Shown: piece by piece, positions 8,643-35,844 of the stretch
How positions within the stretch are numbered: the first letter of the stretch is position 1
Layout of the letters: each line of letters starts with the position of its first letter
Origin: Chloroflexota bacterium
Lineage (GTDB): Bacteria; Chloroflexota; Anaerolineae; J102
Length of the DNA: 38,886 nt
Direction of reading: 5' to 3'
NCBI GenBank assembly: GCA_024224665.1
Contig: JAAENG010000340.1
Span: 1-38,886 of the forward strand
Translations under genes and position numbers: made by a program
The notes under the pieces: generated by a model
What the model saw: only the letters and a program-made list of their open reading frames with translations
Databases searched by the model: none
What the model was told of the DNA's origin: nothing

Positions 8643-13193
<4,551 letters not shown>

Positions 13194-22933: not shown

Positions 22934-23986
22934 TCAAGCCTCTTCCGGTTCTACCAGCCAGATGTGGTGGCGTGGGAAGCCCAGTTGCACGGTTTCTCCG
23001 TCGTGGAACTGCTGCACACTGGCGGCGTCGGTGACGACCTCTAACAGCTGATCTCCCGCTTCCACCTTGAAGCGTGCGTGGGTGCCGACATAGACATGGC
23101 CGCGAATGCGCGCCTGGATGCTGTTTTTCCCGGACTCGCCCAAGCGAAGGTTTTCTGGTCGGATGGTGATCACGGCCGGGCCATCGGCGAAATGGTCGGG
23201 ATTCACGTCGAATAGGCCGAGGGCGGTCTCCACCACAGCGCCCCTCTTCTCGCCCGCCACGAAATTGACACCGCCAAAGAAACGGGCGGTGCGCACGTTG
23301 ACAGGTCGCTCGTAAAAGGCATTGGGCTGATCGAACTGTGTGAGTTTGCCTTCGAACATAAGGGCGATTGTGTCAGCCAGAACCACGGCCTCCTCCTGAT
23401 CGTGGGTGACAAAGACCGTGGTGATGGCAAGCTGGCGCTGAATGCTGAGGATCAGTTCGCGCATCTCATCCCGCAGATGGGCGTCAAGATTTGAGAGCGG
23501 TTCGTCGAGCAGCAAGACCTCCGGCTCGATCACCAGCGCCCGCGCCAACGCCACCCGCTGTTGCTGCCCGCCCGATAGCTGTTTCGGCCTTCTGTCCTGC
23601 ATCCCGGGTAGTTTGACTAGCTCGAGGATATCGGCCACTTTCTTGTCGGTGATGAGCTTGTCCACATGCCGCATACGTAAGCCGAAACCGACGTTTTCGC
23701 CGACCGACATGTACGGAAACAGCAGATAATTCTGAAAGACCATGGCCGCGCCCCGTTTCTCAGGCGGAATGCGCATCACCGAGCGCTCATCAAAGCGGAT
23801 GTCGCCGGAGGTGGGGTGCAGCAACCCGGCGATCATTTTGAGGGTGGTGGTTTTGCCACAGCCGGAGGGGCCAAGCAGGGCGGTGATCTGGCCGGAAGTG
23901 ATGGTCAGATCCAGATCTTGGACGGCGTGAACGGTATCTCTGCCCTGGAAAATCTTGTTGAGGCCTTGCAGGGTGACTTCCGTCAT
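22934..23986 (-). CDS. ABC importer ATP-binding protein (MalK/PotA-type, with TOBE domain)
   Basis: 350 residues, energising subunit at the inner face of the membrane. Walker A is 'GPSGCGKTTT' (39-48), Q-loop 'VFQNYLLFPYMSV', signature 'LSGGQQQR' (137-144), Walker B 'VLLLDEPLSNLD' with Asp161-Glu162, and the switch His is in 'TVFVTHDQEEA'. About residues 275-345 form a TOBE-like regulatory domain ('ITIRPENLRLGE', 'HVYVGTHARFKVE'). That is normal for CUT1/spermidine/iron-type importers and absent from most short ATPases. It overlaps the permease gene by 4 bases (ATGA), and the next gene follows directly. It works with the two permeases and the lipoprotein encoded upstream. Confidence 0.93.
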   Translation of the reverse strand: MTEVTLQGLNKIFQGRDTVHAVQDLDLTITSGQITALLGPSGCGKTTTLKMIAGLLHPTSGDIRFDERSVMRIPPEKRGAAMVFQNYLLFPYMSVGENVGFGLRMRHVDKLITDKKVADILELVKLPGMQDRRPKQLSGGQQQRVALARALVIEPEVLLLDEPLSNLDAHLRDEMRELILSIQRQLAITTVFVTHDQEEAVVLADTIALMFEGKLTQFDQPNAFYERPVNVRTARFFGGVNFVAGEKRGAVVETALGLFDVNPDHFADGPAVITIRPENLRLGESGKNSIQARIRGHVYVGTHARFKVEAGDQLLEVVTDAASVQQFHDGETVQLGFPRHHIWLVEPEEA

Positions 23987-24864
23987 GCTCCAAATCCTCC
24001 CAAGGCGGCGCTTTCGCCTGTAAGGTATTTCGAGGTGATAATGATGATGAGAATCGAGGGGGCCAGGAAAACGAGGCTCAGCGCCGCCGTCACCGGGTTA
24101 TCGTTAGCATTGGCGAAATTGACCAACAACAGGGGCACGGTAATCACACGTCCGCCGCTGATCAAAAGGGTGACGATGTACTGACCCCAGGATATGATAA
24201 AGGCAAACATCGCCGCCACAAGCACGCCGGGGAGAATCGTGGGAAATGTGACGTGGATAAATGTGCGGATGGCGTTCGCCCCCAGTGTACGCGCCTGTTC
24301 CTCAAATTCGGGATTGTAGTTCGAAAAGACGCTGGCCATCACCAGGACGACGTATGGCGTTGTGCCGATCAAGTGGGCCAGTGTGACGCCGCTTAGTTTG
24401 CCCGCCAGTCCCAGGCGGATGAAGGCGACGTGGATGCCCATAACCACGGCCAGACCGGGAACGATGACCGGGGCCAGGATAAGAAATTGGACGATGCGTT
24501 TACCCCGGAATTTGTGCAGTCCCAGGGCTCGACCGGCGGGGATGCCGACAGCCAATGACAGAATTGTGGCGATGATGGCGATGATGCCGCCCTGGAGCGC
24601 CGCTTCACCGGCCTTGGAAGCAGGCGAGGCCACATACGACCAGGCTCGCAGGCTCAGTTCTTCGGGCAGCAGATCCGGATAAAACCAACGCCCGCTGAAT
24701 GACCATAACACGATGGGGATGATGGGCAGTAAAATGGTGACGATGATGAGGATCATGGCGCCGTAACTGAGCCCACGCCACACACGTTCCCGTCCTGCCG
24801 GTTCGTTCGAATCCACAAGGACGGGCTGCTCTTTTGCTTCAGATCGTTCAAATCTCCGTAACAT
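23983..24864 (-). CDS. ABC importer permease, second subunit (PotC-like)
   Basis: 293 residues with about six membrane helices (the first near residues 31-55, 'AMILIIVTILLPIIPIVLWSF'). The cytoplasmic EAA loop reads 'EEQARTLGANAIRTFIHVTFP', which contacts the ATPase. A soluble basic N-terminus of about 30 residues precedes helix 1. Ribosome site GAGGAGG lies just upstream of ATG 24864. The gap to the first permease gene is 12 bases and the overlap with the ATPase gene is 4 bases, so the three are co-transcribed. The permease is of the binding-protein-dependent inner-membrane family shared by spermidine, iron and some carbohydrate or thiamine-like importers; the substrate is not visible in it. 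Confidence 0.92.
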   Translation of the reverse strand: MLRRFERSEAKEQPVLVDSNEPAGRERVWRGLSYGAMILIIVTILLPIIPIVLWSFSGRWFYPDLLPEELSLRAWSYVASPASKAGEAALQGGIIAIIATILSLAVGIPAGRALGLHKFRGKRIVQFLILAPVIVPGLAVVMGIHVAFIRLGLAGKLSGVTLAHLIGTTPYVVLVMASVFSNYNPEFEEQARTLGANAIRTFIHVTFPTILPGVLVAAMFAFIISWGQYIVTLLISGGRVITVPLLLVNFANANDNPVTAALSLVFLAPSILIIIITSKYLTGESAALGGFGA

Positions 24865-24876
24865 GATTCATCCTCC

Positions 24877-25749
24877 TCAGTCCGATCGCACGTAGGTCTC
24901 TGTCAGTTTCATGTACACCAAGATCAAGATCGTGATCAGTGCGGCGATGATCATGCTGGTGGCCATGGCCTCGCGCCGGAAACCCAGATCGACGTTGTGG
25001 TAGTATTCGAAGCTGAGCACAGGCAATGCTCGCGGATAACGCTGACCCAGCAAAAATGGTATCTCGAAGGCGCCAAAAGCAAAGGCGAATACGAGGATGG
25101 AGGCGCGCAGGATGCCGGGCATGATCAGGGGCATGATCACGAAACGGAAGCGCTGCCAGGCGTTGGCGCCCAACGAGCGGGCCGCGTCCTCGTAATCATC
25201 GCCAATGGATTGCAGCACCGCCAGCAGGATCACGCCCGTAAAAAAGGTCATTTTCCAAAGATATTCGAGAATGATGCCGATGGCATATTTGTCGTGAACC
25301 AGCGCCGGAAATTCGGACTGTACAGACGTAAGGCCTATCGCCTGCGTCAAGCGAGAGATCAGGCCGCTCTGGGAAAAGAGAAAGATAACGCCAATAGCGC
25401 CGACGATGTGCGGCACAGCCACATTCAACTGAAAAATAAATGTGGTGATACGCTTCCCTCTGAGATTTTGCCGCAACACCAGGGCGAAGATAACGGCCAG
25501 GATCGTAGAAAAAATGGTGGCGGCAAAACCAATCCAAGCGGTGAGCAGCAGGGATCGCAGAAAATCCTCGTCCGTGAAAATGTTGATATAGGCGTCAAAA
25601 GTGATGTCGGTTTTGCCGATGATGGGCATGTAGCCCAGCGATTGCATGAAGCCCATGATCAGCCCGCCCATAAACAAAACGAACACAACCGACATGGCAG
25701 GCAGCAAGAGGAGGGGGACTTGCATCCGTTCTTTTAAGTTCGCGAGCAT
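24877..25749 (-). CDS. ABC importer permease, first subunit (PotB-like)
   Basis: 290 residues with about six membrane helices, starting at 'VPLLLLPAMSVVFVLFMGGLIMG'. The EAA loop is 'YEDAARSLGANAWQRFRFVIM' followed by PLIMPG. It forms the channel with the second permease. Its ATG (25749) lies 82 bases after the lipoprotein gene stop, and a hairpin-forming inverted repeat occupies that gap. In the E. coli YnjBCD system, which the receptor resembles, the permease is one fused double-length protein. Here it is two separate genes. Substrate unknown. Confidence 0.92.
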   Translation of the reverse strand: MLANLKERMQVPLLLLPAMSVVFVLFMGGLIMGFMQSLGYMPIIGKTDITFDAYINIFTDEDFLRSLLLTAWIGFAATIFSTILAVIFALVLRQNLRGKRITTFIFQLNVAVPHIVGAIGVIFLFSQSGLISRLTQAIGLTSVQSEFPALVHDKYAIGIILEYLWKMTFFTGVILLAVLQSIGDDYEDAARSLGANAWQRFRFVIMPLIMPGILRASILVFAFAFGAFEIPFLLGQRYPRALPVLSFEYYHNVDLGFRREAMATSMIIAALITILILVYMKLTETYVRSD

Positions 25750-25773
25750 TGTTTATCTCATCTGTTGGGTGCA

Positions 25774-25820
25774 ACCGAGACCTGCGGGACAGATAAGCTC
25801 CCGTCCCACAGGTTCGGGTT
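25774..25820. repeat. Inverted repeat between receptor and permease genes (possible mRNA stabiliser or attenuator)
   Basis: ACCTGCGGGAC (25780-25790) pairs with GTCCCACAGGT (25803-25813), an 11-bp stem with one mismatch and a 12-base loop. Flanking AACC-GAG and TTCGGGTT extend it with a bulge. It sits 12 bases after the lipoprotein receptor stop and 24 bases before the permease start in the direction of transcription. Hairpins in this place often leave the receptor mRNA more abundant than that of the permeases. No T-run follows. Confidence 0.6.
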
Positions 25821-25831
25821 GAGGATGCGGT

Positions 25832-27151
25832 CTACTTCTTGAGGACGTTCTCGATCCAGCCTTGTTCGAGAGCCGTCAACCAGTCGGACTGCAACTCCGG
25901 CGCTTTGTTCGCTGACAGAACGGCGGGAGCCAGAACAGCGGGACCTCGCTCAACAGCGGCAAGGCGATCCAGGGCCTCTTGCGGCAGGATTGAGACATTG
26001 AGCGGGGCGATCCAGTTGTGGTTTTCGATCCGATCAAGCTGTGCATCCAGCCCAGCGAGGAAGTTGGCGGTGACGATGGCCGCAGGCAGATTGGCGGCGT
26101 TGTAGGCGGTTGCGATGTAGTTGGTGTTGGCGATGGTGCCATCAGAGACCACAAAGGTGCGCACGGTTTCGGGATAGGTCCCGTTATCGATGCGGTTCTG
26201 AGCATCGCCGGGGCCATAGGTCATGCGGAATTGCACTTCGCCATTGGCAAAGAGGTCGATGTGCGCCTGCTGGGTATCGGGATAGGTCTGGCCCTCCCGC
26301 CACAGATAAGGATCGATCTCGTTGAATAGGTCCCAGCAGGCAGGCGTGAGTTCGTCGAATTTGGCTTGATCGAATTCACCGAGGAACTCTTCATAGCCAC
26401 CGGCGGCGTAGTAGCACATCATCCGCACCCAGACGCTGCCCGTGAAGTCGGGCGGGGCCGGGTAAGTGAACAGGCCTGGATTGTCCTTGATCCACTGCAT
26501 CAGGGCGGCCATATCCGTGGGCGGCTCATCGATCACGGCGGAATCATACTGGAGGACGACCTGAGCGCCGCCCCAGGGGATTTCGTAGCCGTCAACCGGG
26601 AAGCCGAAATCGAAGGCAACGCTGGCGTCATTCCAGTCATAGAACGCCCCCGAAGGCACGGCTTCGGACCAGGGACCGTAGAGCAGATCGGCGCCTTTCA
26701 TGGTGCGGAAGTTCTCGCCGTTGATCCACATGATGTCCACAGCGCCGGCGTCATCGACACCGGCTTCTTTTTCGCCAAGCGTCTGGTTGATGAACTCGGT
26801 GGGGCCGGCCACGGGCACTTGTTTCATAGTGATGTTGTACTGCTCTTTGAGCTGATCGGCCAGCCAGCCATTCACCCAGGCATTGATGGTATCGGAGCCG
26901 CCCCACATCCACCAGTTGACATCCTGTCCGTCGGCAGCGGCGACGATGTCATCCCATGACATGCCCTCCAATCTGCCGGTTAAACCAAGCGAATCCGCGG
27001 GTTCGGCCGCGGGTTCTTCAACTGCTGGCTCCTCTGCGGCGGGTTCCTCGGCCACCGGTGCTGCTGGCGGCGCCGCTGGCGCTACACATGCTGCCAATAA
27101 CATAGTCAGTACTAAAACCAATCCAAAAAACAGATAGATTTTACGATTCAT
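25832..27151 (-). CDS. ABC importer solute-binding lipoprotein (YnjB-like)
   Basis: 439 residues. Signal peptide with lipobox LLAAC, Cys22 ('FGLVLVLTMLLAAC'), then a flexible linker of Ala/Pro/Glu repeats (about 24-54), so the receptor is tethered to the outer face of the cell membrane. The mature part has 'VNWWMWGGSDTINAWVNGWL', 'VDIMWINGENFRTMKGADLL', 'GPWSEAVP' and 'IPWGGAQVVLQYDSA'. These recall the E. coli YnjB (COG4134) receptor rather than typical family-1 sugar receptors. Strong ribosome site (AGGAGG) before ATG 27151. The gene follows the isomerase gene by 105 bases and precedes the permeases. YnjBCD itself has no firmly known substrate, so the ligand remains open. Confidence 0.9.
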   Translation of the reverse strand: MNRKIYLFFGLVLVLTMLLAACVAPAAPPAAPVAEEPAAEEPAVEEPAAEPADSLGLTGRLEGMSWDDIVAAADGQDVNWWMWGGSDTINAWVNGWLADQLKEQYNITMKQVPVAGPTEFINQTLGEKEAGVDDAGAVDIMWINGENFRTMKGADLLYGPWSEAVPSGAFYDWNDASVAFDFGFPVDGYEIPWGGAQVVLQYDSAVIDEPPTDMAALMQWIKDNPGLFTYPAPPDFTGSVWVRMMCYYAAGGYEEFLGEFDQAKFDELTPACWDLFNEIDPYLWREGQTYPDTQQAHIDLFANGEVQFRMTYGPGDAQNRIDNGTYPETVRTFVVSDGTIANTNYIATAYNAANLPAAIVTANFLAGLDAQLDRIENHNWIAPLNVSILPQEALDRLAAVERGPAVLAPAVLSANKAPELQSDWLTALEQGWIENVLKK

Positions 27152-27256
27152 CAGTTTGCCTCCTGATTTAGCAAGTGTGAGTGGAAAACGGAACGATAGT
27201 GAGAGATTGGGAATTCAGACATTGGGCATACTCCTCCTCCTTACGCTGTGGTTGTG

Positions 27257-28693
27257 TCAGGCGATTGCTATGGGGTTGATCAGGTGATCTCGATATGAAA
27301 TCTTGGGCAGCACATGGATATTGGTCCATGCAGCCAGTTCGGCGAAGACATCCGTCCAGTCGCCTCGCGCCAGCGGATAATGATGTTCAAGACCATAAAA
27401 AGCGATGGTCTCGAACAAGTCGGCATTGGATAACGGCTGGTCCTTCATGCGCAGATTGGCCAGCCAGCCGCGGCTGCCGGCATAGCCACGGGTCGGGCCT
27501 TCGACCACATCGGCGGACATCAGCAACAGTGTGTCTGCCGCCTGGGAAAAACGGGCCACCGTCACCGGGCCGGGTGCAAAAACCAGGTCGGATGAAGCCC
27601 CATGTTTGGGCGCCTCGGGTGGGTTGGCCCGGTCCAGCGTCACATGAAAGACAATCGATTGGCCCTGCTCATCGGCCCAACTGGCCGGCGACGGCCCGCA
27701 GTGCCACATCTGGATCAGTTCCGGTTCGTCGGCCAGCGCCACCAGATCCATCAGCGTCACCGGCTGGCGGCTGACAAAATAGGATGCCAACATGCTGATG
27801 GCGCCGAGAACATCGCCTTCGCAGGATGCGGGTAGGCCAGTTTCGTTGAGCCAACTGATAGCGACGCAGGGGGCAACGCCGCCCAACTCGCTCTGAAATT
27901 CCGGCCAGCAGCGCACGCCCAGCGAGCTGTACCCGCCCTCTGTGGCTAACTCCCGCAATGCCAGATAGATCCGGGCAGTCTGCTCCATCCACTTGTCCGA
28001 TACCTGCACATCTGTGGCCCGACCTGTGATCGCTTGTACGACCTCCGCCACTTCCCTCTCTCCGTAGTGACCCACCCGAGCAAAGACCTCGCCCATCGCC
28101 TGCTGCTCGATCTGCACGCCCAGGCGCTCGGCGATAGCTTCGGCGTCATAATCCAGGTTCAGAAACGTTGGCGCCGCCCCGCCGATCAGGCCAACTTTCG
28201 TTTGGCTCAGATTCTTCAAGGCGCTCAAAGCCCGCACGGTGATGGCCAGTCGTCGCCGGAACTGTGGCGAAGGGGCATGGCCGTAGAGCCACTTGTACGG
28301 CAGGTTCCGCTCCTTCAGATGCAGGCGAATGATGGAGGCAAATAGATTGAAACCGGTGAGCGAGTTAAGGGGGATATCGCCCTCGAACGAAGGCTCAGGT
28401 AGGAACCACAGCCCCAGGCGGGCGTCAACATCCGCCAGCGGCAGCACTACATCGCCCAGGGCAAAGGAACTGGCCTGGATGAGTAGGAAATCGACGCCCT
28501 CGGCGCTCATGTGACGGGCGGCGACCTCAGCTTCTTCACGCGACTGCACACCCTTTTCGAGTGCAATCAGTTCAAAATCAAATTCAGCGGCCAGCGTCTT
28601 CAACTCGATCCTCGAGCGCTCGATCACGCCCAATTTGACGGCATCGAAATTGGGAAAGTAGGCGCTGACTAAACCGATCTTGAGTCGTTTCAT
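27257..28693 (-). CDS. L-fucose/L-arabinose-isomerase-family protein
   Basis: 478 residues from ATG 28693 ('MKRLKIGLVSAYFPNFDAVK'). A TTG at 28717 is in frame but belongs to the upstream gene's end. The N-terminal Rossmann-like domain carries 'FDFELIALEKGVQSREEAE' and 'GVDFLLIQASSFALGD'. The central part has 'YKWLYGHAPSPQFRRRLAI', 'KVGLIGGAAPTFLNLDYD' and 'VRCWPEFQSELGGVAPCVAI', the family pattern seen in fucose isomerase C-terminal-type proteins. Such enzymes convert free aldoses to ketoses with Mn2+. Classical FucI is about 590 residues and AraA about 500, so this is a shorter relative whose exact sugar is unknown. Its first 21 bases plus flank recur upstream of the ATPase gene, suggesting the ATPase gene was inserted at its start. 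Confidence 0.82.
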   Translation of the reverse strand: MKRLKIGLVSAYFPNFDAVKLGVIERSRIELKTLAAEFDFELIALEKGVQSREEAEVAARHMSAEGVDFLLIQASSFALGDVVLPLADVDARLGLWFLPEPSFEGDIPLNSLTGFNLFASIIRLHLKERNLPYKWLYGHAPSPQFRRRLAITVRALSALKNLSQTKVGLIGGAAPTFLNLDYDAEAIAERLGVQIEQQAMGEVFARVGHYGEREVAEVVQAITGRATDVQVSDKWMEQTARIYLALRELATEGGYSSLGVRCWPEFQSELGGVAPCVAISWLNETGLPASCEGDVLGAISMLASYFVSRQPVTLMDLVALADEPELIQMWHCGPSPASWADEQGQSIVFHVTLDRANPPEAPKHGASSDLVFAPGPVTVARFSQAADTLLLMSADVVEGPTRGYAGSRGWLANLRMKDQPLSNADLFETIAFYGLEHHYPLARGDWTDVFAELAAWTNIHVLPKISYRDHLINPIAIA

Positions 28694-28694
28694 G
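28674..28694. repeat. 21-bp direct repeat, copy 1 (isomerase start)
   Basis: This copy covers the start codon and first six codons of the isomerase-like gene (in + orientation CCGATCTTGAGTCGTTTCAT plus G). It is identical over all 21 bases to 30212-30232. Flanking bases differ on both sides. Confidence 0.92.
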
Positions 28695-28713
28695 CTGTTC
28701 ACATCACTGCCAG

Positions 28714-30117
28714 TCAAAGGTCCACCACCGAAGCCAGATCAACCAGTAAAACGTTGGCGTCGGCAGCCCGTTTCTGCAGACCTGCGGTGAAACCACTACG
28801 ACTGAAAAGGGTATAGTGCACGGCCCAGTTTGGATCTGGGACAACCCGAGTTGCTTTGGCGTTCAGAGCCTCCAGGTTCTCGACGCTCATGGGGCGTGAA
28901 GTCCACTTGGCCTCGCCCAAGAGGATCGCCTGGTCCCGCTCGTTGATTGCTACGACGTCCACTTCGGCTTGCCGGTCCCACCAGCGGCCTACACGGCGGG
29001 GGACAAAGGGGAGTTGGTCAGCATCACCCTTGGCTATCACCCAGGCTCGACATAGGTCTTCGAATGCCGTCTGTCCCACGAAGGCGGGCAAGTTGCGTTC
29101 GATCTCCTCCAGAACGAGGCCGGTTCGGCCCTGCTCGATCAGTTCCAGGTTGGTAGCCAGGAAGCGGAAATAAAAGCGCAGGTAGGGATCGGCGATGATA
29201 TAGCGCCCACGACGGCTGGTCTCGGGTTGGGCTTCGGTTACGGGAACCTGTCGATCCACCAGGCGGAGCGAGCGTAATGTGTTGAGATAGCTCGACACCT
29301 GCCCATCGATGCCTGCGGCTTGACCAATAGCTGTAGGAGTGCGTTTCCCGCTGGCGATGGCCATGAGTATGGCCGCGTAGTTCCGGGGCTTGCTAAGTTC
29401 GTCACCGAGCAGGTACGGGGGATCGAAGAGAAACAAACTGGTTGAACTCAGCATGCGCTCTACGTTGCCCATCACCGGAATCTGATCGTCCCACAGTTCC
29501 AGGTAACTAGGAATGCCGCCCAGGATGGCGTAGGTCTCCACCTGTTGCACGGCGCTATAGCGGTGGAGTAACTGACGCACTGCTGGGAACTTGAGCGGAT
29601 TCAGCAACAGACGCCCCGTGGCCCGACCATAGAGGGGGGCCTGGTAGCTACCGATCTCTCGCTCCATCATGCCCACGTGACTGCCGGCAAGTGCCAGGAA
29701 GATTTGAGTGTTCTTGAGGTAGTGGTCCCAAACGTTTTGCAGGATCGAGGAGAGTGCGGATTCGGCGTCGGCGGCATAAGGATACTCATCAAGGATGATT
29801 AGTAGCCGTTGGTCGCGAGCGATTGAGGCAGTCTGTCGCAGGGCTGTCTCCCAGTCGCCGTAAGTGAAATCGGGGCCGGCTGGTGTCTCAGGATAAGCCC
29901 AGTTATGCACGGCACGGGAGAAGCTGCGCAGCAAAGCATCCGAGGATAGTCGGCTGGCCACCCAGTAGAGATATGGACGATCTCTGGCAAAATGCAGGAG
30001 AAGGGTGGTTTTACCCGTACGCCGGCGGCCGTAAACGGCCAGGAATTGAGCGCCTCGTCTGGCCCACATTTCTTCCAGCGCCGCCAGTTCCTCTTCACGG
30101 TTAATAAAACGATTCAC
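28714..30117 (-). CDS. ATPase_2 (archaeal-type) P-loop ATPase with DUF234 nuclease-like C-terminus
   Basis: 467 residues from GTG 30117, chosen because AAGGGG sits 6-8 bases upstream and the product starts 'MNRFINREEELAALEEMW', typical of the family. A TTG at 30132 is the alternative. Walker A is 'YGRRRTGKTTLL' (29-40). Walker B is 'LLIILDEYPY' with Asp110-Glu111. The family words 'LAGSHVGMMEREIGSYQAPL' and 'YGRATGRLLLNPLKF' follow. A winged-helix-like segment ('TPTAIGQAAGIDGQVSSYLN') precedes the C-terminal DUF234 region, which contains a PD-(D/E)XK-like core: Glu385/Asp387 and, 15 residues later, Glu402-x-Lys404 in 'LGEAKW'. The role of this family is not established. It does not fit the sugar pathway, and the gene is bounded by 21-bp direct repeats, so it looks like an inserted module. 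Confidence 0.88.
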   Translation of the reverse strand: MNRFINREEELAALEEMWARRGAQFLAVYGRRRTGKTTLLLHFARDRPYLYWVASRLSSDALLRSFSRAVHNWAYPETPAGPDFTYGDWETALRQTASIARDQRLLIILDEYPYAADAESALSSILQNVWDHYLKNTQIFLALAGSHVGMMEREIGSYQAPLYGRATGRLLLNPLKFPAVRQLLHRYSAVQQVETYAILGGIPSYLELWDDQIPVMGNVERMLSSTSLFLFDPPYLLGDELSKPRNYAAILMAIASGKRTPTAIGQAAGIDGQVSSYLNTLRSLRLVDRQVPVTEAQPETSRRGRYIIADPYLRFYFRFLATNLELIEQGRTGLVLEEIERNLPAFVGQTAFEDLCRAWVIAKGDADQLPFVPRRVGRWWDRQAEVDVVAINERDQAILLGEAKWTSRPMSVENLEALNAKATRVVPDPNWAVHYTLFSRSGFTAGLQKRAADANVLLVDLASVVDL

Positions 30118-30211
30118 GATTATCCCCTTCAAATACAGGTAGCATAAGCATGATTATCATAATGTGGCTTATGTTACTGTACTTGATATGAATCGCCATG
30201 TCAAAATGTTG
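30118..30211. other. AT-rich leader of the inserted ATPase gene
   Basis: In contrast to the GC-richer cluster around it, this 94-base stretch is AT-rich. It carries several short inverted words (for example TAAGCATGATTATCATAATG and GCTTATG/CATAAGC). It lies between repeat copy 2 and the ATPase start. In the direction of transcription it opens with the duplicated isomerase start (ATG 30231) and a 20-codon frame (MKRLKIG... ending TAA near 30170). It may hold the module's own promoter. Confidence 0.45.
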
Positions 30212-30232
30212 CCGATCTTGAGTCGTTTCATG
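30212..30232. repeat. 21-bp direct repeat, copy 2 (after GH42 stop)
   Basis: Identical to 28674-28694. In transcription direction it begins with the base following the GH42 stop codon (TGA, 30235-30233), then ATG AAA CGA CTC AAG ATC GG. This implies an ancestral junction GH42-TGA-C-ATG-isomerase that was split by the ATPase module. Confidence 0.92.
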
Positions 30233-32398
30233 TCAGTGTGTGAGAAGAAGAGCGGTGCTATCGTAGCCATCGAGCGTCACGTCGAAACGGAGGGTGGAGG
30301 CGGAGGGCCGGGTGACAGGCGGATGGTCGGAGAACAGATCGCAGAGGGTCGTGTTCGGTGGCAGAGTGGGGATGTGGACGGCAGCGGTGGCGCGCTGCGG
30401 ACCGTGGTTGATCATAATAAAAATATGCTGATCCCCGGCAGTCAGCAAATGCCCATCCAAGCGCCCATCACCTTTGATGGTGAAGGGAGGGACGACGCCG
30501 GCAAGCCCGGCGAGATTGGCAAAGACCTGGCGATGCCGATCGGCCCCATCCCCCAGAGCCGCCACATCAAAATGCGTGCCGAACAGGATCGCCCGCCCGG
30601 CGCCAGACTTTCTGGAAGTCACCGCCGCTCTGCCATCCTGGTAGCGGGCGACAACTTCTGTGCCCTCGAGCACTTCGAAATCCTGCCGATGCCAGTGGCC
30701 GTGTAACGAACCCGACACGCCCGCAAACACGTTGTTTCCCGGCTCAGGACGTAGCACAGGCGCTTCTTCTTTTTTGATCCCCGTTTCCTTGACGCCGAAC
30801 AACTCTGTCAACCCGCCCGGCCGTTCCCGCCAATACCACGATTTCTCGTTCAACATCCCGCATTTGCCGAACCCGACCACCGTGCCGCCCCCGGCCACAA
30901 ACTCGGTTACGGCCTGAGCGCATGACGGCGTCACCAGCATGTTGAACGGCATCAGCAGCAAGCGATAGTGCTCGCCCTTACCCGCGGCCAGCAGCTCCGG
31001 CGTGATGAACTCGACCGCATAGTGCTGCGACCAGCAGGCGGCGTAGACGCCCTTGATGGCCTTGAGCAGCATATCGGCGGCGCCCATGCCCACGCAGGCG
31101 ATGTTGTTTTTCGGGTCGACCAGAATGCCGATCTGTGCCCGTAGCGGCTGCGCATCGAGGAACAACGCCTCGTGCGCCTGCACCACCCGATTGATGTTCG
31201 CCGCCTCATGGTAGCGCTCGGTGGGCTCGCCCTTGAGATCGACCAACGCCCCCCAGTGCAATGGCAGTGGCTCCCACTCCCGATAACCCTGGTAGAGGAT
31301 CAATTTAGCGCCGTGTGCGATACAATCCAGGTCGTAACGGCGGATGTCGCGGGCGGTGGTGGCGTGGGTCGGGCCCAATACCCACTCGCCGATGGCGCCG
31401 CTCTCGATTTCGGGAATCCAGAAGGGTTTATCGGCATGAACAGCGGGTGAACGGGCATAGTCCAATTGCAGGGATGAGAAAAAGGGTTCGGCGACAAAAC
31501 GGTTGAGCGGATACAAGTCAAACCCGAGGGCATCGCAGGTTTCTGGATACTGCCAGGCGTCGATGCCCCGCACCACGCCCAAGTCGACATCCAACAGATG
31601 CACCAGATTGGTCGTGGTGGGATGCTCGCCGTCCATTTCCTTGATGATGTCGTTCTGCCAGGCGATGAATCGGGCGAAGCCGTGATCGACAAACGTGCGC
31701 CAATCAAGCCAGGCGCCCGGCGACCCCCAGGCCGCGGGGGCGCTGCGAGGCGGCTGCAGCTGTGACCAGTCGTGGTAGCGATGGTGGGTGGGCGTGCAGG
31801 CCCAGGCCTCGCTCAACGACTGCACATCCGCATACTTCGTTTGCAGCCATTTTCGGAAAGCCTCGGCGCAGTGGCAGCAGTAGCAGTGATATTCCACCAC
31901 ACCTGTCCGGCGTTGGATGTGGGGATGCCCCGGTTCGTTGTGAATCTGCCAGGCGAACAGAGCCGGATGGCTGCGATAGCGATCCAGCAGGACGCGCAGA
32001 TAGCGGTCGGATTCAGTACAAAAGCCGGGATGATGGATGCAGGCCCATCCCCACATCGTGCCGGTGGGATAGGGTGCGCCATTCTGCGAGATAATTTGGA
32101 CATCGGGATAGGCATCCAGCAGCCAGATGGGCGGACTGCCGGCCCCCGTGCCGAGCATGATCCTGATCCCATGCGCCTGCGATAGCTCAAAAATCTGGTC
32201 CACCCAGCCAAAGTCGAACTCGCCCTTTTTCGGCTCGATCCACTCCCAACTGGCGATCAACTCGGCGGTGCGAATGGCGTTCAGCCCGGCTTCGGCCATG
32301 CGCGCCACATCCTGCACCCACTCGTCAGGCGTGTGGAGGGGTGGGTAGTAGCTAGAGCCAAGGGGGAAGAACGAGAGTCGTGCGATGTTTCTGTTCAT
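30233..32398 (-). CDS. GH42 beta-galactosidase
   Basis: 721 residues, no signal peptide, so it works inside the cell on imported beta-galactosides or related oligosaccharides. The TIM-barrel starts 'GSSYYPPLHTPDEWVQDVAR'. The acid/base Glu155 is in 'WQIHNEPG', and the nucleophile region is 'PFWIPEIESGAIG' near residue 330. The cysteine cluster typical of many GH42 enzymes is visible as Cys120 in 'GWACIHHPGFC' and 'HCYCCHC' at 171-177. The trimerisation (GATase-like) and C-terminal beta domains fill about residues 400-721. Length is normal for GH42 (about 650-720). The ATG lies 37 bases after the preceding dehydrogenase gene stop. Specificity (lactose, arabinoside or other) cannot be fixed from sequence. 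Confidence 0.92.
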   Translation of the reverse strand: MNRNIARLSFFPLGSSYYPPLHTPDEWVQDVARMAEAGLNAIRTAELIASWEWIEPKKGEFDFGWVDQIFELSQAHGIRIMLGTGAGSPPIWLLDAYPDVQIISQNGAPYPTGTMWGWACIHHPGFCTESDRYLRVLLDRYRSHPALFAWQIHNEPGHPHIQRRTGVVEYHCYCCHCAEAFRKWLQTKYADVQSLSEAWACTPTHHRYHDWSQLQPPRSAPAAWGSPGAWLDWRTFVDHGFARFIAWQNDIIKEMDGEHPTTTNLVHLLDVDLGVVRGIDAWQYPETCDALGFDLYPLNRFVAEPFFSSLQLDYARSPAVHADKPFWIPEIESGAIGEWVLGPTHATTARDIRRYDLDCIAHGAKLILYQGYREWEPLPLHWGALVDLKGEPTERYHEAANINRVVQAHEALFLDAQPLRAQIGILVDPKNNIACVGMGAADMLLKAIKGVYAACWSQHYAVEFITPELLAAGKGEHYRLLLMPFNMLVTPSCAQAVTEFVAGGGTVVGFGKCGMLNEKSWYWRERPGGLTELFGVKETGIKKEEAPVLRPEPGNNVFAGVSGSLHGHWHRQDFEVLEGTEVVARYQDGRAAVTSRKSGAGRAILFGTHFDVAALGDGADRHRQVFANLAGLAGVVPPFTIKGDGRLDGHLLTAGDQHIFIMINHGPQRATAAVHIPTLPPNTTLCDLFSDHPPVTRPSASTLRFDVTLDGYDSTALLLTH

Positions 32399-32435
32399 TA
32401 TGCCAACTAGTTAAAGGGTAAGCGCCGTACCTTGA

Positions 32436-33491
32436 TCACACCACCTCGCCGATGCCCGGTGTCAGGGCTGGTTTAATCACCGATTTGATCGATTCGCCGG
32501 CCTTCTCGATCAGAGCGATCCCGTCGGCCACCTGATGCAGACCGAAACGGTGCGTGATCATGGCTGGGGCATCGATGCGGCCGGTTTCGATGAAACGCAA
32601 CGCCTGCACGGTGTCGATGTGATTGCAAGAATAGGTTGTTTTCAAGGCGATCTCCCGCCAGAACAGATCGAGGGTTGGGGATAGGGTGAGGGTTTCGTCG
32701 GGATGAGGCGGGGCAAAGAAAAGCACCGTGGCCCCTTTCCCGGCGATCTTCAGCCCGAACTCAATCGGTTTGATCCCATTCGGTGTGACGATGACCACAT
32801 CTGCTCCCCGGCCCTCATTCACGTCCTGCAAGGCCGCTAACCCATCGGATTTGCCCGAATTGATGGTCGCATCGGCCCCCAGCGCTGCGCCTTGCTGCAA
32901 CCGCCAATCGTTCAGATCGAAAGCGACTACTTTTCCCGCCCCCCAAACTCGCGCCAATTGGATGAATCCCAGCCCGATGAAACCGCAACCGACGATTGCG
33001 ACCGTGTCGCCGGGCTGGATGCCGGCGATCTTCAGGGCCTTGACCACGCAGGCCATCGGTTCAATCAACGTTCCTTCTTCAAATGACATCGAGTCGGGCA
33101 GGAGATGTACGTCGTGCTGCACATTTTCGGCAGGAACCCGGATGTATTCGGCAAAGGCGCAGGGGTAGATGTGCGATTTGCGGAAATTCTCGCACAGTGT
33201 GTAAGAGCCACGGCGGCACTCATGGCACGACATGCAGCCGAGGTGATGATGCACGAACACCCGGTCACCCGGCTTGAATTTTGTCACGCCCTCGCCCACC
33301 TCGCACACGATGCCGGTGGGCTCGTGCCCGAGGATAATTGGCGCTTTATGCACAAGATACCATTCCATGGTGTCGCCGCCGCACAATCCGCACGAGTCGA
33401 TCTTGACGACGATGTCGCCCGGCCCGGCATCGGGATCTGGGCAGTCTTCCAGACGAACGTCCTTGTTGTTGTAGTAAATCGCTGCTTTCAT
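32436..33491 (-). CDS. Zinc-dependent alcohol/polyol dehydrogenase (second of three)
   Basis: 351 residues, medium-chain family. Catalytic zinc site Cys37 ('CGLCGGD') with His56-Glu57 ('LGHEPTG'). Structural zinc cysteines 86, 89, 92 and 100 ('CMSCHECRRGSYTLC'). NAD turn 'VAIVGCGFIGLGFIQLARVW'. It most resembles threonine dehydrogenase/sorbitol dehydrogenase relatives in sugar clusters. Compared with the flanking enzyme it has GD in the active-site loop instead of TD. The start is ATG 33491; 37 bases separate its stop from the GH42 start. Likely to oxidise a polyol or sugar hydroxyl with NAD+; substrate unknown. Confidence 0.88.
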   Translation of the reverse strand: MKAAIYYNNKDVRLEDCPDPDAGPGDIVVKIDSCGLCGGDTMEWYLVHKAPIILGHEPTGIVCEVGEGVTKFKPGDRVFVHHHLGCMSCHECRRGSYTLCENFRKSHIYPCAFAEYIRVPAENVQHDVHLLPDSMSFEEGTLIEPMACVVKALKIAGIQPGDTVAIVGCGFIGLGFIQLARVWGAGKVVAFDLNDWRLQQGAALGADATINSGKSDGLAALQDVNEGRGADVVIVTPNGIKPIEFGLKIAGKGATVLFFAPPHPDETLTLSPTLDLFWREIALKTTYSCNHIDTVQALRFIETGRIDAPAMITHRFGLHQVADGIALIEKAGESIKSVIKPALTPGIGEVV

Positions 33492-33619
33492 GGTGAGTCA
33501 CTGTACCGAATGGCAGGTTGGAGGTTGGTAAGTTTGGTAAATACGTGCGTGTTTCGTACTGCGTACTACGTCGAGGCATCCCGTGGTGAGATCGGGCCCG
33601 GTACGCAACACGCAATACG
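33492..33619. repeat. Intergenic tract of degenerate CGTACT/TACGCAACACG words
   Basis: The 128-base gap between the two dehydrogenase genes contains CGTACTGCGTACTACG (33556-33571) and GTACGCAACACGCAATACG (33601-33619). These are imperfect inverted copies of each other's words. The composition resembles the tract at 15407-15470. No promoter could be assigned. Confidence 0.45.
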
Positions 33620-34657
33620 CTACGGCACAACTGCCACTTTCAAGCTCTCGCCCGCCATCATCATGCGCAAGCCGTCCTCCAATCTCTCGAGCGGGACTTC
33701 GTGTGTGATCAGCGCCTTTGCATCGATCACGCCTTCGCCGACCAGATGGAACGCCCGTTCCAATGTCTGCGGCGTCAGGTGATAAACACCGAAGATGCTG
33801 ATCTCATCGTAGTGGACGTGTGTGGCATCGATCTCGACCTGCGTGCCGCCGGGTAGGCCGCCGAACCAGAGCACGCGCCCGCCTTTGCGGACGAGCTGCA
33901 GCGCCGACAGCCAGGCCGCCTTCGCGCCCGCACATTCGATGACGACATCCGCGCCCCGACCTGCGGTCATCTCTCGAACGATGGTTGCTGGATCCTCATG
34001 CTTGAGATTGATCGTCCGGCTCGCGCCCAGTTGTCTGGCGATGCCCAGGCGCATGTCGTTCATGTCGATGGCGAAAACGGGCGCGGCGCCTTGGTGTAAG
34101 GCGAGTTGCGTGTGCATCAGACCAATGGGGCCGCCGGCGCCGATGATGGCGACGCTTTCACCCGTTTGAATCTGCACCAAATCTTGTCCGTGAAGCACAC
34201 AAGCGAGCGGCTCGATGATGGCCGCCTGGCGATAGCTGAGATGGTCGGGCAGAATGAAAGTGTTTTGTTGGACGAGGCGGGCGGGGACACGAATGTATTC
34301 GGCAAATGCACCCAGATTGACCAACAGATCATCGCAAAGATTATGCTGACCCCGTTTGCAATAGTAGCAAGCGTTGCAGGGAGCGGTATTGCCCGCCACC
34401 ACGCGCATGCCTGGCTCGAACTCCGTTACCGCCTCCCCAACAGCCACGATATCCCCCGCAAATTCGTGCCCAAACATCGTCGGCGGATCATATTTAGGGT
34501 GGCCCCGCTTGTAGGTCTTGACATCAGTGCCACACGTGAGCGCCGTACGCACTCGCACCAACAGATCCCCCGACTCGATATTTGGGATGGGAACCTGGCG
34601 CAGTGCGATGACGCCCGGTTCCAGATAGACGACAGCTCGCATGCTTGCTGCTGGCAT
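33620..34657 (-). CDS. Zinc-dependent alcohol/polyol dehydrogenase (first of three)
   Basis: 345 residues, first gene of the - strand cluster. Catalytic zinc site Cys42 ('TCGTDVKTY') with His64-Glu65 ('FGHEFAG'). Structural zinc cysteines 94, 97, 100 and 108 ('CNACYYCKRGQHNLC'). NAD turn 'VAIIGAGGPIGLMHTQLAL', with a GPIG turn close to GxGxxG. Start ATG 34657 is favoured by GGGAGG about 7 bases upstream; an internal ATG at 34642 is the alternative. Probably oxidises a sugar or polyol. It has 128 bases before the next dehydrogenase gene. Confidence 0.88.
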   Translation of the reverse strand: MPAASMRAVVYLEPGVIALRQVPIPNIESGDLLVRVRTALTCGTDVKTYKRGHPKYDPPTMFGHEFAGDIVAVGEAVTEFEPGMRVVAGNTAPCNACYYCKRGQHNLCDDLLVNLGAFAEYIRVPARLVQQNTFILPDHLSYRQAAIIEPLACVLHGQDLVQIQTGESVAIIGAGGPIGLMHTQLALHQGAAPVFAIDMNDMRLGIARQLGASRTINLKHEDPATIVREMTAGRGADVVIECAGAKAAWLSALQLVRKGGRVLWFGGLPGGTQVEIDATHVHYDEISIFGVYHLTPQTLERAFHLVGEGVIDAKALITHEVPLERLEDGLRMMMAGESLKVAVVP

Positions 34658-35195: not shown

Positions 35196-35675
35196 GTTAC
35201 TGACTTTGATGCCCAGTTTGAGGAGTTCGCCCCGAATGCGCTCAGCACCTCAGGTCCGATTGTCTGACGCCATCTGGCGGATGAGCGCTATCGCTTCGGT
35301 TGAAATCCTTGGTTCCGCTGGTTTTGGTTTGGATTGTCGTCGCCAGATGATGCAAAAGAGTTCACGATGCCAGCGCAGAAGCGTGTCAGGCTGAACGATG
35401 AGCAAAGCCTGCTTCCAGTTAGGTGTGGCTCTTGCCAGCAACAGGAGTTTGATACGAAGAAAGTTTGTGAGCTTGGGGCGTTTGCTATGTTGATGGAGGA
35501 TAATGAGTTGTTGCCGCAGAAAAGCATTCTCAGCGATGAGAGCAGTCCTGCTGCGGGTTAAGTCGATGGCTGAACCACTCGCCAAGGAAAGGTTGCTGGG
35601 TTTGAGCCAACATTTGATGTGAGTTTGAACGGCGTTGGAGAATCGACGATAGAGTTTATGAAGGGCTGAATGCAT
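35196..35675 (-). pseudogene. Truncated IS transposase remnant (integrase-core/IS3-IS481-like N-terminal part)
   Basis: From ATG 35675 the frame reads 'SRTALIAENAFLRQQLIILH', 'KLLLLARATPNWKQALLIVQ', 'PDTLLRWHRELFCIIWRR' and 'EAIALIRQMASDNRT'. A TGA follows (35252-35250) where homologues have Trp, and then, still in frame, 'GAERIRGELLKLGIKVSN'. This is the N-terminal helix-turn-helix half of a common integrase-core transposase. Similarity ends at about 35196, before the DDE catalytic domain. It therefore has both a nonsense mutation and a 3' truncation and cannot transpose. Confidence 0.75.
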
Positions 35676-35844
35676 ATTGCTGAGACTCCCGCTTTGGAGA
35701 TATGAAGTCGGGAGCATAGCAGCATGATGCCCGTAATTCAACAACAGCGAGCACCCAAATCAGCACGGATGAGCGAAGTCGCCAGCACGCCCGCAAGGCG
35801 TATATCCTGCGCTTGTGGGGCTTTTGGATTCATGCACCAAAACA
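35676..35844. other. Intergenic stretch with a possible small coding relic
   Basis: No intact gene. A short + frame at about 35759-35850 reads 'STDERSRQHARKAYILRLWG' and ends in TGA. It resembles the start of a small protein with a 'A-Y-x-L-R-L/C-W' segment, but I cannot assign it. Confidence 0.3.

Follow-up and report, generated by a model that had tools for sequence, protein, structure and literature searches.

A tandem-palindrome promoter array suggests self-repression of a one-gene ATPase-nuclease module found in Bacteria and Archaea

INTRODUCTION

How can a single gene enter an operon without breaking it, and what keeps such a gene in check when it arrives? These questions are raised by a locus in a 38,886-nucleotide (nt) stretch of DNA from a Chloroflexota bacterium (contig JAAENG010000340.1, assembly GCA_024224665.1), hereafter the window. 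Here, a gene for an ATPase_2-DUF234 protein lies in a sugar operon between two exact copies of a 21-bp sequence, CCGATCTTGAGTCGTTTCATG. We find that relatives of this gene travel together with their promoter region. In much of the family, this region has a palindromic array with a period of 15 bp that overlies the core promoter. With a probability of about 0.6, we consider the window gene to be a horizontally acquired single-gene module of the PDC-S27 family, encoding a self-repressing STAND/AAA+ ATPase with a winged helix and a PD-(D/E)XK nuclease, that entered the operon by one-sided recombination. Positions are window coordinates throughout; L-numbers denote homologue loci and G-numbers genomes, as labeled in the analysis.

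The PDC-S27 family, which PADLOC lists as a phage-defense candidate, is abundant yet has no established function. A 2026 survey (PMC12988326) counted 3,503 archaeal and 4,562 bacterial S27 loci (about 8,000), characterized S27 as the fusion of an ATPase with a PD-(D/E)XK domain, and described these candidates as unvalidated. Although the ATPase_2-DUF234 family is thus already known, the promoter signature reported here is apparently new: in the open-access literature searched, we found no description of the tandem-palindrome promoter, of the autoregulation hypothesis, or of the insertion borders.

RESULTS

A 15-bp-period palindromic array precedes the gene in Bacteria and Archaea

The region upstream of the window gene had been annotated on first pass as an AT-rich leader. 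Instead, it consists of a 34-bp filler, a promoter-like sequence, and a tandem palindrome that had been missed (Table 1); an extended dyad surrounds the latter (30139-30177). The window array is the sole match to the pattern ATAAN6TTAT-N-ATAAN6TTAT (at most one mismatch) in its own 5.77-Mb genome. Across the family, from Chloroflexota to haloarchaea, the unit is a 14-bp palindrome, ATAMTYNNRAKTAT, which recurs two or three times with a sharp 15-bp period upstream of the gene. We compared mechanically called control open reading frames (ORFs) with a homologue set in which start codons were estimated and relatives of the window gene are overrepresented, using scoring thresholds picked while viewing the data. 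Of 109 non-redundant upstream regions, drawn from many phyla, 32.1% scored at least 10/12 when matched to themselves at lag 15; the corresponding share of 351 control ORFs was 0.3%. Dinucleotide shuffles gave a mean of 0.26% and a maximum of 1.8% at this lag, and the signal was 0.9-2.8% within the gene, downstream of it, or further upstream. Among lags 9 to 30 other than 15, none stood out in the 109 regions. Dyad scores of at least 9 occurred upstream of 60% of 75 homologues and 4.4% of 298 control ORFs (p = 5e-22), and the array sites of 75 of the 109 homologues beat 20 shuffles.

The array is positioned as autoregulated repressors place their dyad sites, over the gene's own promoter. Its center has a median position of -38, with a -10-like hexamer at the center in 41 of the 72 best sites; the promoter-like sequence of the window, which is a consensus match only, predicts a transcription start within the array. 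Divergence of the array also follows that of the winged helix (r = 0.38), with a partial correlation of 0.18 once the ATPase domain is controlled for (permutation p = 0.001) and of 0.05 for the ATPase domain given the winged helix, in a Mantel test that removes phylogeny incompletely. Because the array covers the core promoter and tracks the winged helix best, repression of the gene by its own ATPase is the simplest reading. The pattern suggests a protein that regulates its own expression and carries its own switch.

The array might instead be read by another protein, such as a host regulator, or might function by forming a hairpin when single-stranded, as DNA or as RNA. Many arrays come close to perfect palindromes and could extrude, and binding by the ATPase is itself a prediction. 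We nevertheless consider this unlikely, given the covariation with the winged helix and the occurrence of the 15-bp tandem form before the family in both Bacteria and Archaea, domains with few common regulators. In addition, the perfect Chloroflexota form, ATAAGCCAC, is restricted to ATPase genes in the three genomes that carry it, apart from one copy just behind a stop codon (G031), and the window form is unique in its genome; the looser pattern, however, does occur elsewhere in genomes G099 and G385.

The arrays of this tandem form in G099 and G385 (L280:831-859 and L279:1501-1529) lie away from recognizable ATPase genes and are perhaps remnants or other targets. At L042/L062 (G031:C115:22505-22545), a second palindrome directly follows the ATPase stop codon, with the end of the TAA serving as its first base, such that palindromes stand on both sides of the gene. 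One contig (G435:C71) holds two ATPase copies (L072 and L079) with other palindromic repeats in place of the usual palindrome; L074, which is 93% identical to L079, retains it. Among the few DUF4143 relatives examined, palindromes such as GTTTATTTGCAGTATAATTGCAAATAAAC precede some ATPase genes (L262, L265), none convincingly of the 15-bp tandem form.

The protein combines an ATPase, a winged helix, and a nuclease-like domain

A single complete gene lies between the repeat copies, with Pfam matches to ATPase_2 (3e-21) and DUF234 (5e-24). Its start codon is most likely the GTG at 30117, judged by the Shine-Dalgarno-like AAGGGG before it, rather than the TTG at 30132 in the ORF list. The PD-(D/E)XK-like C terminus proposed on first pass is borne out by Pfam, alignments, and an AlphaFold2 model built from 60 homologues (mean predicted local distance difference test score, 96). 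The model comprises an AAA+/STAND ATPase, a confident winged helix (helices 246-257, 263-270, and 276-285; wing strands 289-292 and 307-310), and, at the C terminus, a PD-(D/E)XK-like fold in which D389 and E404-x-K406 are conserved in at least 90% of the 60 homologues. The closest folds in the PDB are 2qen and 2fna, followed by Orc1/Cdc6 and the resistosomes of plant nucleotide-binding leucine-rich repeat proteins.

Both PADLOC PDC-S27 profiles match over the full length of the protein (PDLC04984, E = 1.6e-40, residues 5-453 of 469; PDLC04985, E = 8e-29, residues 5-465), and, as expected of S27, the ATPase is joined to a PD-(D/E)XK-type domain that retains the catalytic residues. The PADLOC listing and the domains make the window gene a candidate for a role in defense. 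Matches to phage proteins were few and distant (viral contigs were not scanned). The closest homologue found has 45% amino acid identity, and an initial scan of genome contigs with the single protein as query gave no match.

The gene moves as a single-gene unit

Close homologues (72-96% DNA identity) occupy unrelated locations, and their similarity extends from just upstream of the gene to near the stop codon. Within one Chloroflexota family, pairs of 72-93% DNA identity align from approximately -60, where the palindrome has its outer edge, as far as the stop codon and have unrelated flanks; for two copies in the same genome (L039/L060), the alignment spans -60 to +1 at 89%. The haloarchaeal copies that are 90-96% identical to L245 occur on plasmids in contexts unrelated to one another. 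They have a common 5' border near -109, their 3' borders vary, and some interrupt TnpB genes. In Rhizobium, loci L243 and L261 have flanks that are approximately 98% identical, one containing the unit (L243:2816-4495) and the other 2.16 kb of other genes; the arrival of this copy was accompanied by a 2.16-kb deletion. The near-identical copies, unrelated contexts, and sharp borders seen among relatives indicate that the gene moves as a one-gene unit, through several kinds of event. For the window copy itself, we found neither a close copy nor an empty site.

Other observations concern the surroundings of these copies. On haloarchaeal plasmids, L248, L252, and L253 abut TnpB genes or fragments. 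Miniature inverted-repeat transposable element (MITE)-like repeats of approximately 139 bp (L128:5765-5903, 11042-11320) are present in dozens of copies and are common around the ATPase genes of G398 and G435; the flanks of G435:C71, compared with a sister genome, are mostly repeats. A putative empty site for L039 in G264 was set aside, since synteny is present but approximately 5 kb of extra DNA in G080 prevents a clean comparison.

Repeats of neighboring gene ends accompany some insertions

The first-pass annotation had suggested testing whether homologues, like the window gene, are flanked by direct repeats. A scan of 260-bp flanks, counting scores of at least 18, found such repeats at 8 of 106 homologues and 1 of 323 control ORFs (p = 8e-5), but approximately 92% of homologues have none, and lengths across the family vary from 21 to approximately 180 bp (the longest at L229). 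One of the eight (L056) repeats its own palindrome downstream rather than a gene end. Besides the window, six loci repeat the end of a neighboring gene: the start of the downstream gene at L176, L227, L242 (score 26, from a wider flank), and L253, and the end of a convergent gene at L219 and L222. Two scores of 400 (L184, L234) were edge artifacts, in which the upstream and downstream windows were identical sequence, and were dropped; repeats at L203 (57 bp) and L063 (51 bp, terminator-like) have an unclear gene context and were excluded from these cases.

The gene-end repeats start within approximately 3 bp of a start or stop codon, with the exception of L227, whose similarity sets in a few codons into the gene. 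Such close agreement with coding boundaries would not be expected of random target duplication. At two loci, the differences within the repeats are mainly synonymous (10 of 12 changed codons at L253, 10:2; 7 of 12 at L227, 7:5), as expected of two related coding genes rather than a decayed duplicate; at L242 and L222, synonymous bias was not significant. These features fit one-sided, homology-facilitated illegitimate recombination better than transposition. Such recombination has been described in bacteria with natural competence and, as a rare event, during conjugation in E. coli (PMC3240628).

Could the gene instead move itself? The ATPase-nuclease would then recognize its own array and a gene-end target, making a wide staggered cut that yields long target duplications. 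The sharp 5' borders of single-gene units placed in unrelated contexts, the large excess of flanking repeats over control ORFs, the similarity of the ATPase domain to the profile of the transposition ATPase TnsC, and the second palindrome fused to the stop codon at L042/L062 would all agree with this. We regard it as quite unlikely, as most homologues lack a repeat, repeat lengths vary and begin at coding boundaries, and the differences at L253 and L227 are biased toward synonymous changes. Moreover, the Rhizobium copy is associated with a deletion, array sequences diverge together with the protein, and the gene of the close copy L079 is intact though its array is lost. The fuller version, in which ATPase_2-DUF234 genes are a class of self-mobilizing one-gene elements whose ATPase assembles on the array as both operator and element end while the nuclease cuts gene ends and the neighbor is regenerated, strikes us as very unlikely. 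We detected no transposase domain and saw no terminal inverted repeats, the latter as already noted on first pass, and flanking repeats are absent or of variable length, unlike those of DNA transposons and insertion sequences. Nor do close copies share a conserved insertion position in a recognition site, as homing endonuclease genes do: their sites are unrelated. Of the earlier proposal, single-gene spread and neighbor-preserving repeats in distant homologues are supported. The data do not support a homing-like gene or a module that, like a transposon, makes a long target duplication of its own.

The window locus

Every gene in the ATPase region is on the minus strand. In that orientation, the order is GH42, its TGA stop, the left repeat (CATGAAACGACTCAAGATCGG), the 34-bp filler, the palindromic array, the ATPase gene, a 19-bp spacer, the right repeat, and the isomerase-like gene (Table 1). 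The exact 21-bp direct repeat, noticed on first pass at the isomerase start and after the GH42 stop, holds up: it has no further copy in the window even at three mismatches, and shuffles gave an expectation of zero, with none matching. Removing one repeat and all DNA between the copies would leave the GH42 and isomerase genes one base apart, in agreement with the first-pass reading. The nearest relative of the isomerase-like gene is sulfoquinovose isomerase, a remote one only, the NF048012 match being below cut-off. It is highly improbable that the isomerase start was duplicated locally, independently of the ATPase's arrival, to give the repeat; although no empty site is known for the GH42-isomerase junction, similar gene-end repeats occur at the six other loci and are nearly absent from control genes.

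The surrounding sugar-use cluster (22934-34657) contains an ATP-binding cassette (ABC) transporter, GH42, two dehydrogenases, and the isomerase-like gene. An ORF at 35250-35744 resembles, as judged by eye, a fragment of an insertion sequence-type transposase.

Table 1. Features of the ATPase locus, in window coordinates.
Feature	Position	Strand	Basis or remark
Isomerase-like gene, downstream of ATPase	27257..28693	-	NCBIfam NF048012, 167 bits, under cut-off 700
Right copy of 21-bp repeat	28674..28694	-	ATG and first codons; working start of isomerase-like gene
Spacer, ATPase stop codon to right repeat	28695..28713 (19 bp)	-	Sequence
ATPase_2-winged helix-DUF234 gene, PDC-S27-like	28714..30117	-	GTG start, 467 aa; Pfam, PADLOC, AlphaFold2, start context
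DUF234, PD-(D/E)XK-like domain	28729..29172	-	Pfam, alignments, model
Winged-helix domain, residues 243-310	29194..29397	-	AlphaFold2; weak MarR_2 match, residues 247-292
Walker A, GRRRTGKT	30007..30030	-	G32, R33, R34, G37, and K38 invariant in 60 aligned sequences
Tandem palindromic array, ATAAGCCACATTAT-G-ATAATCATGCTTAT	30144..30172	-	Two 14-bp units, 15-bp period, center -41
Promoter-like TTGACA-17-TACAGT	30176..30204	-	Consensus scan, 10/12 matches
Filler, left repeat to array	30178..30211 (34 bp)	-	Sequence
Left copy of 21-bp repeat	30212..30232	-	Remnant of isomerase start (MKRLKI...); abuts GH42 stop codon (30233)
GH42 gene, upstream in interrupted sugar operon	30233..32398	-	Pfam Glyco_hydro_42, 3e-68

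DISCUSSION

We propose that the ATPase binds the array through its winged helix, probably as cooperating dimers, and that the bound protein would repress its own gene, such that the module arrives switched off. A trigger, for which invading DNA is our guess, would then release the module and allow the nuclease to act. Entry at the isomerase start may have occurred by one-sided recombination, with homology in the neighbor gene at one end and an illegitimate join within the first codons at the other. This would leave an upstream remnant (20 bases from the start of the coding sequence and one further base) and an intact isomerase gene downstream, and the sugar operon would thus stay open.

Several observations weigh against this explanation. 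Approximately one-third of homologues do not have an array that outscores 20 shuffles, and array scores are low in several copies from haloarchaea and Thermoplasmata. In a sliding-window scan, residues 146-165 of the ATPase domain track the array nearly as well as the edge of the winged helix does. The window repeat is exact, and therefore offers no differences by which one-sided recombination could be told from target duplication. A one-sided event also requires a donor with the ATPase gene and an isomerase gene already adjacent, and no such donor was seen. The empty GH42-isomerase junction predicted on first pass was not found among isomerase homologues from the same family and from 400 genomes of the phylum (which reach 33% and 38% identity, respectively); the gene pair was not seen in any genome searched, with no GH42 near these homologues within the fetched flank of approximately 1.5 kb at most. 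Finally, we found no DNA-binding or phage experiments on the family in the open-access literature searched.

A promoter signature that spans both domains points to the probable DNA-binding place of the protein, a 29-bp site. An off switch of its own suggests a way for a one-gene ATPase-nuclease to pass safely between genomes, and the gene-end repeats illustrate how a module can enter operons without breakage.

Among known systems, the window gene resembles PDC-S27 (PF01637 ATPase_2-PF03008 DUF234) in its full-length match, its domain fusion, its single-gene organization, and its abundance in Archaea and Bacteria. The best profile and fold matches are the STAND/AAA+ ATPases SSO1545 (2fna) and PABY2304 (2qen), which are alike in their ATPase domain and winged helix; however, their solved chains have approximately 350 residues, and the profile match stops at position 283, before DUF234. 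The literature consulted on these two proteins records no DNA site. Orc1/Cdc6 initiators likewise have an AAA+ ATPase followed by a winged helix, and their winged helix binds repeated DNA sites, but they have no nuclease domain and a different biology, with template-modeling scores mostly of 0.3-0.4 over the whole chain. The ATPase domain weakly matches the VchTnsC profile (E = 8e-5) of Tn7 and CRISPR-associated transposons, whereas the module has no transposase partners, terminal inverted repeats, or fixed target duplication. Autoregulated toxin-antitoxin operons and phage repressors offer an analogy, in that a regulator binds palindromes over its own promoter. Unlike these systems, the ATPase has no conserved partner gene and would unite sensor, DNA-binding domain, and effector in one polypeptide.

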